From a bacterium (GTDB lineage: Bacteria > UBA9089 > CG2-30-40-21 > SBAY01), in contig JBFLYA010000107.1 in the NCBI GenBank assembly GCA_040757115.1, positions 3,985-13,361 of the forward strand: a stretch of 9,377 nucleotides of DNA, written 5' to 3'. The notes beneath the pieces are model-generated. The model saw only the letters and a list, made by a program, of their open reading frames with translations, was not told the origin of the DNA and did no database searches. The position numbers were made by a program, and so were the translations under genes. Shown one piece after another: positions 3,166 through 9,323 of this stretch; within the stretch, counting starts at the first letter, position 1, and the number at the start of each line of letters is the position of its first letter.

Positions 3166-4041
3166 ATGTTTAAAGGTTCAATTGTTGCTCTGGTAACACC
3201 ATTTAAAGATGGTCAGGTAGATAAGGAAAGGTTGTTGGAATTAGTTGAGTTTCATATTCAAGAAGGGACAGATGGGATAGTACCGTGTGGGACTACTGGT
3301 GAATCAGCGACTTTGTCCCATGATGAACACAAAGAGGTCGTAACTCTGGTTGTCAACGCAGTAAATAAACGAATTCCAGTGATTGCCGGGGCGGGGTCAA
3401 ATTGCACGCGGGAATCTGTTGATTTAGCTCATCATGCGAAAAAGGTAGGTGCTGACGCTATTTTAGCCGTAACACCTTACTACAATAAACCAACACAAGC
3501 CGGACTATATGAACACTACGCCACCATTGCTAAAGAGGTTGATATTCCACTTATTCTTTATAATGTTCCAGGTAGAACCGGCGTAAATTTACAACCTGAA
3601 ACCGTGGCAAAACTATCTAAAATCAACAATATTGTTGGAATTAAAGAGGCATCGGCAGATTTAAGACAACAAACTAAAATTGTTGAGCTTTGCCGTCCAG
3701 ATTTTGCCTTAATCTCTGGTGATGATTTTACACTACTACCAACATTATCTATTGGTGGAGTAGGCGTTATCTCAGTCGTCGCAAACATTGTCCCAAAAGA
3801 TATGGCAAATTTAATTAAAGAGTTTAACAAAGGCAACTTTGATGAGGCGAAAAGATTACATTATAAAATATTTCCTTTATGTGAGGCTTGTTTTATTGAG
3901 ACAAGTCCGGTGCCTGTAAAAGAGGCATTAGGAATAATGGGTAAGATATTGCCAGAAGTAAGACTACCTTTAGTCCCATTACAAGAAACTAATCGAGAAA
4001 AACTACGGCAAACTCTAATTACCTATGGGATAGGCGTTTAG
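3166..4041 (+). CDS. dapA: 4-hydroxy-tetrahydrodipicolinate synthase
   Basis: The enzyme condenses pyruvate with aspartate semialdehyde, the first committed step to diaminopimelate and lysine, in the cytosol. It is a TIM-barrel lyase of the NAL superfamily. The substrate-binding GTTGE is at 42-46, the tyrosine pair at 105-106, the catalytic Tyr132 in LYNVPGRTG, Arg137, the Schiff-base Lys160 in GIKEAS, and the conserved SGDD at 184-187. The length of 291 aa is normal and all catalytic residues are present, so it should be active. It lies 94 bp downstream of recR on the same strand and may belong to that transcript. No lysine riboswitch fits in the gap. An insertion sequence begins about 58 bp past the stop, so any downstream dap genes that once followed have been separated. 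Confidence 0.97.
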   Translation: MFKGSIVALVTPFKDGQVDKERLLELVEFHIQEGTDGIVPCGTTGESATLSHDEHKEVVTLVVNAVNKRIPVIAGAGSNCTRESVDLAHHAKKVGADAILAVTPYYNKPTQAGLYEHYATIAKEVDIPLILYNVPGRTGVNLQPETVAKLSKINNIVGIKEASADLRQQTKIVELCRPDFALISGDDFTLLPTLSIGGVGVISVVANIVPKDMANLIKEFNKGNFDEAKRLHYKIFPLCEACFIETSPVPVKEALGIMGKILPEVRLPLVPLQETNREKLRQTLITYGIGV

Positions 4042-4063
4042 CAGATAGTTGAGCGATTACAAA

Positions 4064-4090
4064 GAGGGTGTTGAAAAAGTCCTCGCACCC
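4064..4090 (+). repeat. possible solitary end of another insertion sequence
   Basis: AGGGTGTTGAAAAAGTC (4065-4081) is followed by a short stem GGGTG (4066-4070) / CACCC (4086-4090). Its reverse complement, ending GACTTTTTCAACACCCT, resembles the ends of several known DDE insertion sequences as I remember them. It partly resembles the right end of the neighbouring element (13 of 16 bases against 6036-6021), but 4099-4116 matches that end better. It may therefore be a relic of a second element, or an outer repeat of the same one. Confidence 0.35.
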
Positions 4091-4098
4091 AACAAGGG

Positions 4099-4130
4099 GA
4101 GAGCGTTGCAAATAAGATTGGGATTTAATG
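4099..4130 (+). repeat. left terminal inverted repeat of the insertion sequence
   Basis: This pairs with 6007-6036. The identical blocks, left end inward, are GAGAG, GTTGCA and TAAG, then scattered matches through TTA. The left copy carries two extra A residues after GTTGCA. Confidence 0.7.
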
Positions 4131-4326: not shown

Positions 4327-6006
4327 ATGAATACAAAAGAGGACTTCTGTTATCAGGGTATTTCATTTCAGTCCGAAGAGGATAGTGGCGTTGGGGGAGG
4401 ACTGGAAATCAAACAAGATGGGAATCGATTTTGTGTCATAGGCCGAGGGTTTAATATCGGCTGGTTACTGGATACTGCTTCGAATCGAAAGGCGGTGTTA
4501 GTGTTTATCCGGCTATTTCGAGACAAGGCAGGCAAACCATTATATACCCATCAGGAACTTTCAGAGATAGTGGGGAGTAAGAATCGGCAGGCTTCAAGCA
4601 GTCATATGGAACAATTTCATGCTTGTGGTGGCGATATATTGAAGTTTCTGAGTCGTCGTCGCAAGGTAGATGGAGAGGTAGTAGGAGCAGTATTATCAGA
4701 GTTAAAGAAGGATCCTTTAAAGGCAAAGAATGAATTATGTCAGGAAGTGAAGAGGAGGCTTAGTAGGGATGACCTGACGGAGATGAATATTCAAGCAGCG
4801 TTAGAGCAAATACCGTATGAACCATTATACCGTAGGTTAAGAGAGCAGTTGAACAAAGGGGAGGTGCATTATCAAGAGGACTATCTTTTGCAGGAGGTAA
4901 TGAATAGTTTTAGTTCCTGTGGAGGCGAGCAGGGAGGTATGATGCTGGGAGAAGTGGAAGGGATGAAGGTATCAGATCCGACAGGGATACGGAATTTGTT
5001 AACGCCGGAAGTAAGTTTATCCTGCATCAACAAATCGTTGCAGATAGTATGTTTTGTGATGGCCTTGTATCATCATGAGGTTGGATTGTCTGTTCTGGGT
5101 AAATGGTTGAAGGTTCATAAGACTACGATATTACGATGGATACTTGGGTTATCATTGGAGCTTTGGCCAATAGTGTGGAGTTGGGTAAAGAAGGGGGTGA
5201 AGACGAGGAAGGTCTATATAGATGAGAAATGGCTGAAGATTCAAAAGAGATGGTATTATTGGTTTGTCGTTTTGGATGAGGGGACAGGTTTACCGATAAT
5301 AACTTCACTTTTAGCATCTCGAGGGGTATGGGCATGTCGGTGGATAGGCTATCAGATGAAGAAGTTGGGTCAAATTCCTAAAGCAATTATCACGGATGGA
5401 ATGGTAACATATAAATATCTCAAGGAGATCTTAGGAAAAGATGTTGAGCATCTGTTGTGCCATTTTCATTATCAACAGGTTACCAGCCGATGGGTCAAAG
5501 AGAACTTCAAAGGGAATGAACAACTTATTAAGCAGCGTAAGAAAGAGTTGAAGGAGGTCTTACAAACTAACGATAAGCGGACGGTCAAGCGGCGTTTTGA
5601 GAAACTTAGAGGAATGGCCGAAATAATGGGGATACAAAGATGGGTTTCGAATATGGAGGAAGCATTGCCGAAGCTTTTACCTGCTATTGGAAGCAAGAAA
5701 TTTCCTAAGACCAATAATGCGATAGAGCGATTCTTTAGAGATTTTAATCAATTTTACAAAAGAAGGTGTGGATTCTTTTCTGTCATGAGTGCCAGGAGAG
5801 AAATCATCAGTTTTTTGGTAATGTACTTATTTCTTCAGCAGCCAGGTAGTTGCAAGGCTCCACTTGAAATGATTATGCCAGAAGTAAAAAATATGCCTTT
5901 CTATCAACTGGTTAACAATCCACTGGGTTGCCTGTTAGGACTACAAAATGTCAAGTTAAATAAAAATATGGCAGAAAATAGAACAAAACAATGCCTCGGA
6001 CCTTAA
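4327..6006 (+). CDS. DDE transposase with a C-x2-H motif (MULE/IS256-like core, family unassigned)
   Basis: This 559-aa protein is the only gene of the insertion sequence and should catalyse its cutting and joining. The N-terminal region has a likely helix-turn-helix near THQELSEIVGSKNRQASS (74-91), then basic helical segments (about 105-190). The catalytic core is visible: first Asp D299 in VYIDEKWLKI, second Asp D357 in AIITDGM, C378 and H381 in LLCHFH, and Glu E467 in TNNAIERFFRDF, followed by a basic FYKRRCGF. The D-58-D-110-E spacing and the Cys-His motif between the second Asp and the Glu recall MULE/IS256-type transposases, although the protein is longer than typical IS256 members. AGGAGG lies 6 nt before the ATG. 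The ORF is intact with no frameshift, so the enzyme may be active. Calling it a transposase is secure; the family is inferred. Confidence 0.9.
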   Translation: MNTKEDFCYQGISFQSEEDSGVGGGLEIKQDGNRFCVIGRGFNIGWLLDTASNRKAVLVFIRLFRDKAGKPLYTHQELSEIVGSKNRQASSSHMEQFHACGGDILKFLSRRRKVDGEVVGAVLSELKKDPLKAKNELCQEVKRRLSRDDLTEMNIQAALEQIPYEPLYRRLREQLNKGEVHYQEDYLLQEVMNSFSSCGGEQGGMMLGEVEGMKVSDPTGIRNLLTPEVSLSCINKSLQIVCFVMALYHHEVGLSVLGKWLKVHKTTILRWILGLSLELWPIVWSWVKKGVKTRKVYIDEKWLKIQKRWYYWFVVLDEGTGLPIITSLLASRGVWACRWIGYQMKKLGQIPKAIITDGMVTYKYLKEILGKDVEHLLCHFHYQQVTSRWVKENFKGNEQLIKQRKKELKEVLQTNDKRTVKRRFEKLRGMAEIMGIQRWVSNMEEALPKLLPAIGSKKFPKTNNAIERFFRDFNQFYKRRCGFFSVMSARREIISFLVMYLFLQQPGSCKAPLEMIMPEVKNMPFYQLVNNPLGCLLGLQNVKLNKNMAENRTKQCLGP

Positions 6007-6089
6007 ATATAACGCCAAACCTTATGCAACACTCTCGCTTTTATCCCATTAAAGTTTTTTGAAATCTCCTTTACTTCAAGAACATTCAT
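6003..6089 (-). pseudogene. livG: livG remnant: first 18 codons of an ABC transporter ATPase, cut by the insertion sequence
   Basis: The minus-strand ATG at 6089-6087 lies 12 nt after the livM stop, preceded by a purine-rich AGGTAGAGAGAG. The frame reads MNVLEVKEISKNFNGIKA, the characteristic start of a LivG/LivF-type ATPase (EV..ISK.F.G.KA), ending at the Ala codon 6038-6036. The next codons, RVLHKVWRYI and then TAA at 6005-6003, come from the IS right end. The Walker A, signature and Walker B regions are all absent. The first 18 residues come from real livG coding. The rest of livG is not on the other side of the element: the 57 bp before it show nothing like it, and dapA follows. This is a 5' stub of a destroyed gene, identified from its position after livHM plus the N-terminal pattern. 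Confidence 0.85.
6007..6036 (-). repeat. right terminal inverted repeat of the insertion sequence
   Basis: This is the partner of 4099-4130. It abuts the transposase stop (6004-6006) on one side and the surviving livG codons on the other. Read on the minus strand it supplies the foreign tail of the broken livG frame. Confidence 0.75.
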
Positions 6090-6101
6090 CTCTCTCTACC
6101 T

Positions 6102-6971
6102 TTACTCAAATTTGTATTCACCTGCAATCCCTTGAGGTCGAAAATACATAAAGCCGATGAGAAGCAGGGCATAAATCATCTGCCGCAGGTTAGCGGCTAC
6201 TGAATCTGGGATCCCGAGGAATCGTAAGACTTCCGGGATAATAAGGAGAAGAACTGTTCCAACAACCGGTCCTTTCAGATTGCCCATTCCGCCAACAATG
6301 ATAATGGTAGCAATGAATATTGACTCCTCTAATGTGAAGCTTGTCGGGTCGATGTAAGTAACATAATGGGCAAAGAGACTTCCGGAAATAGCTGCCATTC
6401 CAGCCGCAATAAGGAAGGCAAGAACCTTTACTCTGAATACATCCTTGCCCAGGGCCTGGGTGGCTAACTCATCCTCTCTGATTGCCTTTAATAATCTTCC
6501 AAAGGGAGAGACAAGAATTCTCCTTATCACAAAGAAAGAGCCTGCCACGATAATAAGGGTTAGCAAAAAGTATTTCGGCAAGGTGGAGAACTCAAATCCA
6601 AATAGTGATGGGACAGGTATACCAGGTATCCCATAAGGCCCTCTGGTAAGACCAATCCAGTTATACAGGATAGTAAATACAATGAGTTGGAATCCGATGG
6701 TGGCTAAGATAAAGTAGTCTCCCTTCAGGCGGAGGGATGGAAGAGAGACACACAGGCTTATAGCCATTGCCCCAAGAATACTTAGCGGAAGAGCTAAAAA
6801 GAAGTTTAGCCCCAGTTTCACCATCAGCAGGGTTGATATATAAGCCCCTATTCCATAAAAGGCAGCATGGCAAATAGAGAGAAGCCCGGTATAGCCTATT
6901 AGCAGGTTAAGGGAAAAAGCCAGGATGAGGTAGATATTTATCATAATCAAGATATGAAGTAAATAATTCAT
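6102..6971 (-). CDS. livM: branched-chain amino acid type ABC transporter permease LivM
   Basis: This is one of two inner-membrane permeases of a LIV-type (HAAT) importer for leucine, isoleucine, valine or a related substrate. The 289-aa product is almost entirely hydrophobic with about nine to ten membrane segments. Family marks are NLLIGYTGLLSICHAAFYGIGAY (22-44, region only), the cytoplasmic coupling loop SPFGRLLKAIREDELATQAL (155-174), GGMGNLKGPVVGT (227-239) and the terminal RPQGIAG (278-284). It overlaps livH by 4 bp (ATGA at 6971-6968), with AAGGAGG 11 nt upstream of the start inside livH. The gene is intact, but its ATPase partner livG is broken immediately downstream and no livF or binding-protein gene is in the window, so the transporter is probably not functional from this locus. 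Confidence 0.95.
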   Translation of the reverse strand: MNYLLHILIMINIYLILAFSLNLLIGYTGLLSICHAAFYGIGAYISTLLMVKLGLNFFLALPLSILGAMAISLCVSLPSLRLKGDYFILATIGFQLIVFTILYNWIGLTRGPYGIPGIPVPSLFGFEFSTLPKYFLLTLIIVAGSFFVIRRILVSPFGRLLKAIREDELATQALGKDVFRVKVLAFLIAAGMAAISGSLFAHYVTYIDPTSFTLEESIFIATIIIVGGMGNLKGPVVGTVLLLIIPEVLRFLGIPDSVAANLRQMIYALLLIGFMYFRPQGIAGEYKFE

Positions 6972-7843
6972 GTCTCTTCAAGCCTCCTTGTCTTGCCCAT
7001 AATTCCCTGCGGACGGAAGAGGAGAAACATAATCAGAATAGAGAAAGTGACCAGGTCTTGCCATCTGGCGGAGGTCTTCCAGATGACCATATTCTGGATT
7101 ATACCTAAGAATAATCCACCCAGGGCAGCTCCGGTAAAGGTCTTTACTCCACCCACAATAACGGCCACCGCCGCTAAGAGAAAGATGGAAAGGCCCATAT
7201 TGGGATCAATCCCTACATCTAAAGAGACAAGTGCCGCCCCAACACCAGCCAAAAGGGAACCTACTCCAAAGGCAATGATTCTTGTCTTCTCAACATCTAT
7301 CCCTACCACTTCTGCCAGAAGGGCATTATTAGACAATCCCCTTAATGCCTTCCCAAGTCTTGTTTTCATTAGGAAGATATAAAAGATGGAAAAGAGAATA
7401 ACAAAGGCTATGGCATCCAAGACCTGAATCCGGGTCAGGATAATTGAACCAAAGTGGTAGGTTTTGCTTACCCGAGGGAAGATGACTTTGGTTTCGTTTC
7501 CAAAGAGGAGGGCAATTAGGTTTTGAAGAAAGATATAGACACCAAGAGAGCTAATGATGTAAGTAGCTGGTGCGGCCTCCTTTTTTCTTAAAGGGGAGTA
7601 AATAAATACCTCTATCAGGATACCCAATAGAGTTGCTCCGGCCAGGGAGAGAAAAAGGCTTGTTAGAATGTTTGTCTTAAGATTGATAAAGAGGAGATAG
7701 AGAAGGTAAGCCCCACTTGTATAAACAATCCCATGTGCAAAATGAAAAATCCCCGTAGCGCTATATATTAACCCAAAGCCCATAGCAACCAATGCGTAAA
7801 CACATCCCATTACAATACCGTTAGATAGAAGCTGAATTAGCAA
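6968..7843 (-). CDS. livH: branched-chain amino acid type ABC transporter permease LivH
   Basis: This is the second membrane permease of the LIV-type importer, 291 aa and very hydrophobic. Family marks are the N-terminal IYSATGIFHFAHG (26-38), where the family has a NFAHG motif, the coupling loop TRLGKALRGLSNNALLAEVV (161-180) followed by GIDVEKTR (181-188), GGVKTFTGAALGG (231-243) and the terminal RPQGIMG (277-283). The start codon is TTG (7843-7841), chosen because TAGGAGG lies 5 nt upstream and because it gives the normal family N-terminus. It is the first gene of the livHMG' operon. A periplasmic binding-protein gene, often next to livH, is not found upstream; only a 12-codon ORF, an extended -10 promoter and repeats are there. 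By eye livH and livM look richer in G+C than dnaX and recR, which could reflect a different origin. Confidence 0.95.
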   Translation of the reverse strand: MLIQLLSNGIVMGCVYALVAMGFGLIYSATGIFHFAHGIVYTSGAYLLYLLFINLKTNILTSLFLSLAGATLLGILIEVFIYSPLRKKEAAPATYIISSLGVYIFLQNLIALLFGNETKVIFPRVSKTYHFGSIILTRIQVLDAIAFVILFSIFYIFLMKTRLGKALRGLSNNALLAEVVGIDVEKTRIIAFGVGSLLAGVGAALVSLDVGIDPNMGLSIFLLAAVAVIVGGVKTFTGAALGGLFLGIIQNMVIWKTSARWQDLVTFSILIMFLLFRPQGIMGKTRRLEET

Positions 7844-7888
7844 TTAAACCTCCTATACAAATAAAAATGAGAAGAACTTGCCCAAAGT

Positions 7889-7927
7889 TTAACTCCAAAA
7901 GTCAATAATCTCTTTCTTTTTGGACAT
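7889..7927 (-). CDS. possible 12-codon leader ORF upstream of livH
   Basis: ATG at 7927-7925 is preceded by AGGAGCG (7940-7934) with a 6-nt spacer and encodes MSKKKEIIDFWS before TAA. It lies between the likely promoter and livH. It could be a leader peptide, the stub of a deleted gene, or chance. There are no runs of branched-chain residues as expected for a classical attenuator (two Ile only). Confidence 0.3.
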   Translation of the reverse strand: MSKKKEIIDFWS

Positions 7928-7948
7928 CTTAATCGCTCCTAATTATAA

Positions 7949-7957
7949 AATATAGCA
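7949..7957 (-). promoter_or_regulatory. candidate extended -10 promoter for livHM
   Basis: Read on the minus strand, TGCTATATT fits the extended -10 pattern TGnTATAAT. A TATAAT also occurs at 7947-7942 with a poor -35 (TAATTT) 17 nt upstream. Either would start transcription just before the small ORF at 7927. No good -35 accompanies the extended -10. Confidence 0.4.
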
Positions 7958-7976
7958 TACTTTTAAATTAGTGACT

Positions 7977-8001
7977 CTACATTTGTAGCAAATTTGTAGC
8001 A
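7977..8001. promoter_or_regulatory. possible operator: overlapping direct and inverted repeats upstream of livH
   Basis: CTACATTTGTAG (7977-7988) is a perfect palindrome around TT. It overlaps ATTTGTAGCA at 7981-7990, repeated at 7992-8001. The repeats are phased about one helical turn apart and sit 20-45 bp upstream of the candidate -10, where a regulator could bind. No regulator gene is intact nearby. The repeats may instead be debris. Confidence 0.35.
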
Positions 8002-8015
8002 GACTCTGTTCTTTC

Positions 8016-8893: not shown

Positions 8894-8942
8894 GCAGAAG
8901 GCAGAGAGCAGAAGGCAGAGGACAGAAGACAGAGGTCAGAGG
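8894..8942 (+). repeat. 7-bp tandem array, seven degenerate units of GCAGARG
   Basis: Units in order are GCAGAAG, GCAGAGA, GCAGAAG, GCAGAGG, ACAGAAG, ACAGAGG and TCAGAGG. It is the same repeat as 1861-1937, but shorter and more diverged. Confidence 0.85.
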
Positions 8943-8944
8943 CG

Positions 8945-9008
8945 GGTTGTCCCCCGCTGGCGGGGGTTAGGGGGTGGTTGTCCCCCGCTGGCGGGGGATT
9001 AAGGGGGT
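8945..9008 (+). repeat. two tandem GC-rich hairpin repeats
   Basis: Two units of about 31 and 33 bp (8945-8975 and 8976-9008) share GGTTGTCCCCCGCTGGCGGG at the start and end in AGGGGGT. Each contains a perfect 7-bp stem CCCCCGC/GCGGGGG with a TG loop (8951-8966 and 8982-8997). The block is far richer in G+C than its surroundings and contains no ORF of its own. The hairpins are not followed by T-runs, so they are not standard intrinsic terminators. Confidence 0.85.
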
Positions 9009-9074
9009 GGAAATCTCTTCCACTGGCAGAGAATCAAGAAGGATAGAAAATAAAAGTTAGAAGGAGAAACGCTC

Positions 9075-9323
9075 ATGAACCGTTGGTTCACAAATGAAGA
9101 TGAAAATAGGTTTGATGGTTCAGGTGAAATCAGGCTGAAGCCTGCGGCTGCCAGCCTTCCCGAGTCCCGAACCCCGAGTCCCGAGTCCCGATTTTCAGAA
9201 GAACCCTTCAACCTGATTACGGACACGGAAAACGGACACGATTTACGAATTTTCGTAACCGTTCAGGCTATATATCAAAAGTGTAAGAAAGGGGATAAGG
9301 AGATAAGAGTGATATGGAGATAA
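9075..9323 (+). CDS. 82-codon ORF composed largely of dispersed repeats; doubtful gene
   Basis: AAGGAG (9061-9066) lies 8 nt before the ATG, a good initiation context, and the frame starts MNRWFTNEDENRFDGSGEIR. From about codon 20 it runs through recognisable repeats: an AGGCT/AGCCT palindrome (9131-9142), three GAGTCCCGA-like units (about 9161-9192), and at 9205-9254 a copy of the palindromic element, translated as PFNLITDTENGHDLRIF. The tail is basic. I recognise no domain. The likeliest reading is the 5' end of a former gene overwritten by repeat insertions, or a frame open by chance. Confidence 0.25.
   Translation: MNRWFTNEDENRFDGSGEIRLKPAAASLPESRTPSPESRFSEEPFNLITDTENGHDLRIFVTVQAIYQKCKKGDKEIRVIWR
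9159..9192 (+). repeat. short tandem repeat of CCCGAGTCCCGA-type units
   Basis: CCCGAGTCCCGA is followed by ACCCCGAGTCCCGAGTCCCG, giving three overlapping copies of CGAGTCCCGA. It sits directly before the palindromic-element copy at 9205, just as the heptamer arrays adjoin the other two copies. Confidence 0.7.
9205..9266 (+). repeat. third copy of the palindromic repeat element
   Basis: Bases 9205-9254 match 1955-2004 at 45 of 50 positions (shared blocks ATTACGGACACGGA and ATTTACGAATTTTC). After 9254 the copies diverge. Here TTACGAA (9243-9249) and TTCGTAA (9252-9258) form a tight inverted repeat. Confidence 0.8.

Follow-up and report, generated by a model that had tools for sequence, protein, structure and literature searches.

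What kind of event leaves a single insertion sequence (IS) between dapA and a transporter operon that breaks off within the first codons of livG? The window, i.e., the whole stretch of 9,377 nucleotides that was analyzed, corresponds to positions 3985 to 13361 of contig C107, and its right end is the end of the contig. The host belongs to an uncultivated lineage with an IS-rich genome, and its assembly comprises 4.32 Mb in 462 contigs (99.87% complete, 1.41% contamination). From left to right, dapA on the plus strand is followed by 57 bp, the IS with its transposase on the plus strand, and then, on the minus strand, the livG remnant, livM, and livH. The features considered here are the following.

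3166..4041, plus strand: dapA (4-hydroxy-tetrahydrodipicolinate synthase), left neighbor of the IS; TIGR00674, 370.7 bits (cut-off, 206)
4061..4098, plus strand: left stub of a dispersed repeat, 38 nt; 92 to 97% identity to copies in C202, C196, C126, and C9
4099..6036, plus strand: insertion sequence, 1,938 bp; imperfect terminal inverted repeats, a copy in C46, and the right ends of diverged copies
4327..6006, plus strand: transposase, 559 amino acids; DDE_Tnp_IS240, 33.4 bits, and alignment with two relatives
6037..6089, minus strand: livG remnant, 17 codons plus 2 nt; DNA alignment to livG of the relative G003
6102..6971, minus strand: livM, intact; 89% identity to G003 LivM and BPD_transp_2, 166.7 bits
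6968..7843, minus strand: livH, intact; 86% identity to G003 LivH and BPD_transp_2, 119.6 bits

The best matches of DapA (86% identity to G002 DapA and 84% to G003 DapA) and of LivM come from the same family, so the contig is not a mix of two organisms. An Rfam scan of the window gave no match. Among the smaller repeats, a tandem 7-bp unit (AGAGGGC, 11.7 copies) at 1856 to 1937 overlaps the end of dnaX, similar 7-bp arrays occupy 8895 to 8942 and 9158 to 9191, and two tandem copies of a 31- to 33-bp unit with a CCCCCGCTGGCGGGGG palindrome lie upstream of livH (8945 to 9010).

The livG remnant and the repeat stub

The earlier note had described a LivG-type start 12 nt after livM, and this reading holds: livM ends at 6102, an ATG occupies 6089 to 6087 of the minus strand, and the frame from 6089 to 6036 (MNVLEVKEISKNFNGIKA) shows 72% identity to the N terminus of G003 LivG. 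As a reference operon, we used the intact livH-livM-livG-livF-livK of G003, a same-family relative (SBAY01000147.1, a record labeled "Nitrospira sp."). In a BLASTN comparison with this operon, positions 6037 to 8005 of the window aligned unbroken, with 81% identity over 1,978 nt; the last aligned base, 6037, directly adjoins the IS and corresponds to position 2 of G003 livG codon 18. Because base 6036 is the terminal G of the IS, the remainder of livG amounts to 17 full codons plus 2 nt; the cut had been placed after codon 18, which is correct to within one base in position and slightly too long in what remains. The remnant frame stays open for 28 codons before a stop and contains no ATP-binding motif. 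The expectation that this frame would match LivG in a profile search was not borne out, as the 28-residue query, which is too short, gave no match. The remnant is identified as livG by synteny and by the DNA alignment.

The two intact genes, livH and livM, encode tandem BPD_transp_2 permeases, as in HAAT branched-chain amino acid ABC transporter operons. At this locus livG is reduced to 17 codons, livF is absent, and the window contains no ORF for a periplasmic binding protein, in agreement with the earlier claim that the locus lacks all three; in G003 and in distant loci, these genes come after livHM. The order livHMGF, with livK in most loci, is conserved in distant lineages, and dapA was near none of the distant-lineage liv loci examined. 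The NG86 dN/dS values against G003 were 0.07/1.27 (about 0.06) for livM and 0.08/0.62 (about 0.14) for livH, with open reading frames; these ratios average over the whole divergence from G003 and cannot date the loss. Since livM and livH are open and conserved relative to G003, the loss is probably recent, or else the permeases remain in use together with other ATPases.

On the left side, the stop of dapA lies at 4041 and the IS begins 57 bp further on, with no livG there, just as had been described. What had been missed is that 38 of these 57 bp (4061 to 4098) are the beginning of another dispersed repeat. In C202, C196, C126, and C9 this repeat continues with ATTAARACTAATAAG or ATTAARACTAATAAGTAATTATTCC, while in the window it ends at 4098, the edge of the IS. 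As the repeat is cut at this edge, the IS sits inside the repeat and the remainder of the repeat is gone. The 38-nt stub is evidence, independent of the livG side, of DNA loss on the left as well. The neighbors of dapA in G002 differ on both sides (an aroE-like gene and a tRNA, by eye), so they are uninformative about the ancestral neighbor. In G001, which belongs to the same genus and is rated 100% complete, the search found no DapA homologue.

The insertion sequence, its transposase, and its target duplications

The IS has imperfect terminal inverted repeats (GAGAG[C/T]GTTGCA), with GAGAGCGTTGCA as the left end at 4099 and GAGAGTGTTGCA as the right end at 6036 (complement). Both of the edges proposed earlier are supported, the left one by a second copy in C46 whose first 275 nt are 100% identical and the right one by diverged elements whose ends fall on this base as well. 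After these 275 nt, the C46 copy is replaced by another repeat at the contig end (L003 1501 to 1898), which carries repeated GGCAATTGAAAATTGACCC motifs and resembles an IS21-type end.

By inspection, D299, D357, and E467 are the candidate catalytic residues of the transposase; the last two are separated by 110 residues, and a CHFH motif lies at 378 to 381. Its relatives in G001 and G007 show 61 to 65% identity. The scores for NF033587 (IS6; 45.9 bits) and NF033543 (IS256; 24.8 bits) are below the cut-offs of 125 and 150, respectively, and for DDE_Tnp_IS66 (cut-off, 23.1) the window transposase reaches 19.3 bits and the G007 relative 23.5 bits. In members of the IS6 family (IS26-like), the DDE core is compact, and about 34 residues separate its second D from the E. 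We left the IS out of IS6 because of the score below the IS6 cut-off and the 110-residue D-E spacing. A transposase search in plasmids gave no match, and the structure prediction, with a mean pLDDT of 37.6, was unusable. A candidate group for this transposase would combine an IS6-like D-D region and a long spacer before the E with 8-bp duplications and short non-autonomous derivatives.

The flanks of the IS in the window, AACAAGGG and GCTTTTAT, share 0 of 8 bases. Three short elements with the same ends are flanked by 8-bp duplications that match at 8/8, 8/8, and 7/8 positions (TTTGATAC in C100, TTTCCAAG/CTTCCAAG in C41, and TGGAAGGG in the relative G004), a flank match of at least 7/8 having a chance of about 0.0006 per element. 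No clear duplication is visible at a further four short elements or at the G007 copy, which is full-length (5/8). The absence of a target duplication had been used as an argument against simple insertion; the absence itself is confirmed, but because other elements of the family also lack a duplication, it is on its own no proof of rearrangement and is weaker than had been stated. Stronger evidence comes from the truncation of the partner sequence on both sides. Short elements (366 to 385 bp) with the ends of this IS were located at L159 2182 to 2547 (C100), L158 2764 to 3135 (C41), and L004 1343 to 1727 (C3); these are non-autonomous derivatives in which only the ends and part of the 3' region of the transposase gene are left, two of the three with 8-bp duplications.

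The missing genes and the origin of the junction

A DNA search of the assembly with 4.6 kb of G003, covering livG-livF-livK and downstream sequence, yielded only the 143-nt livM/livG start among the matches listed. Likewise among the matches listed, LivG as a protein query found distant ABC ATPases only, and LivK found just one protein, in C331, with 28% identity; the surviving ABC ATPases and the LivK-like protein of the host are distant paralogues (28 to 39%). Two left IS ends and one right end are present among the matches listed, and neither a reciprocal junction nor a second livG half appeared there by DNA, protein, or IS-end patterns. The earlier note had advised looking for a second IS copy flanked by the missing livG: a second left end does exist in C46, but its neighbors are unrelated and are not livG. 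No relative with the undeleted arrangement was found. The host also has a distant second liv system (livH-livM-livG in C114 and a LivF-like gene in C108), and as a conjecture, this system may supply ATPases. The LivG of C114 (L015 1551 to 1720, at a contig end) ends in a tail of about 30 to 40 residues, and similar tails (66 to 100% identity) occur at about 20 further sites, mostly at contig ends, probably another repeat inserted at the gene end.

Both junctions are present, partner sequence is lost on both sides, and the missing genes are absent from the assembly among the matches listed. We consider it likely that the junction is the scar of an IS-mediated deletion. The IS would first have resided beside dapA, within another repeat and 38 nt from its start; in a later event, its right end would have been joined to livG codon 18 with removal of the intervening DNA, namely, the rest of the repeat, further DNA, livK, livF, and the part of livG that starts at codon 18/19. 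The loss would comprise at least livK, livF, and most of livG, about 2.7 kb by the G003 spacing, plus a further stretch. With dapA on the plus strand and the liv operon on the minus strand, a single deletion suffices, and an inversion need not be invoked. A point against deletion is the fragmentation of the assembly (462 contigs), since the missing DNA, if flanked by repeats, may instead have stayed unbinned. The IS could have targeted livG on the same molecule, giving an adjacent deletion, or it could have recombined with a second copy already present in livG. We slightly prefer the adjacent deletion because one IS copy suffices; the two routes leave the same scar and cannot be told apart.

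The second route is deletion by homologous recombination between one IS copy in livG and another in the repeat next to dapA; recombination between two copies of the element had been offered as an example in the earlier note. It is not established, an adjacent deletion by one copy explains the junction equally well, and we hold it as a tentative sub-case of deletion. The 275 identical nucleotides in C46 indicate that the IS was multicopy, and the expected product, a single IS with unmatched flanks, is what is observed. However, this route requires an earlier insertion in livG of which no other trace remains, and no excision circle or reciprocal product occurs in the assembly among the matches listed.

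An assembly chimera, in which two loci were joined via the repeated IS, is improbable. Such an error would fit the fragmentation of the assembly, the repeats at the ends of other contigs, an IS that at 1.9 kb is longer than short reads, and a left flank that consists of a repeat stub. Against it, IS bases 276 to 1938 have a single occurrence among the assembly matches listed, so there is probably no alternative graph path in this part; on either side, the junction coincides to the base with an end of the IS, and the best matches of the two flanks come from one family. A chimera would also be expected to leave the other half of livG as unique sequence, and none was found among the matches listed.

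Deletion or inversion had both been envisaged earlier, and of these, deletion is favored because the livG remainder was not found in the assembly among the matches listed. An IS-mediated inversion or translocation, with this remainder elsewhere beside another IS copy, would agree with two unpaired flanks, but we regard it as very unlikely: an inversion would keep all of the DNA, the livG remainder, livF, and livK of the operon were not found among the matches listed, and C46, the only other IS end, has unrelated neighbors and a flank (TACAAACT) unlike GCTTTTAT. Simple insertion, rejected in the earlier note as well, is ruled out since neither flank resumes across the IS, and the mismatch between TACAAACT and GCTTTTAT also rules out C46 as the other half of such an insertion.

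A literature search for an earlier report of the livG-IS-dapA arrangement, judged by title and abstract, found no relevant paper among those listed. The event is real but ordinary, a common kind of rearrangement in genome erosion; its value is that of a base-precise example of a transporter operon that has lost a part to an IS, in a lineage that is uncultivated and rich in such elements.

Comparison with known systems

Compared with the livHMGFK operon of G003, livH and livM are collinear at 86 to 89% identity and so is the start of livG, whereas the window lacks livG from codon 18/19 onward, livF, and livK. Homologous recombination between direct IS copies gives an identical final structure, but a second copy in livG must be assumed. 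IS26-type elements make adjacent deletions, in which the 8-bp duplication is split between the products (PMC9602291). The locus resembles these IS6-family deletions in the 8-bp duplications of the family and the one-sided loss of a chromosomal segment (PMC9602291), as well as in the single IS between unpaired loci with no flanking duplication. It differs in its transposase, which has 559 residues, is only distantly IS6-like, and keeps D and E 110 residues apart. That this IS represents a transposase group outside the NCBIfam IS families that makes replicative adjacent deletions is a doubtful proposal at present; if true, the IS26-like route would reach beyond IS6 proper.
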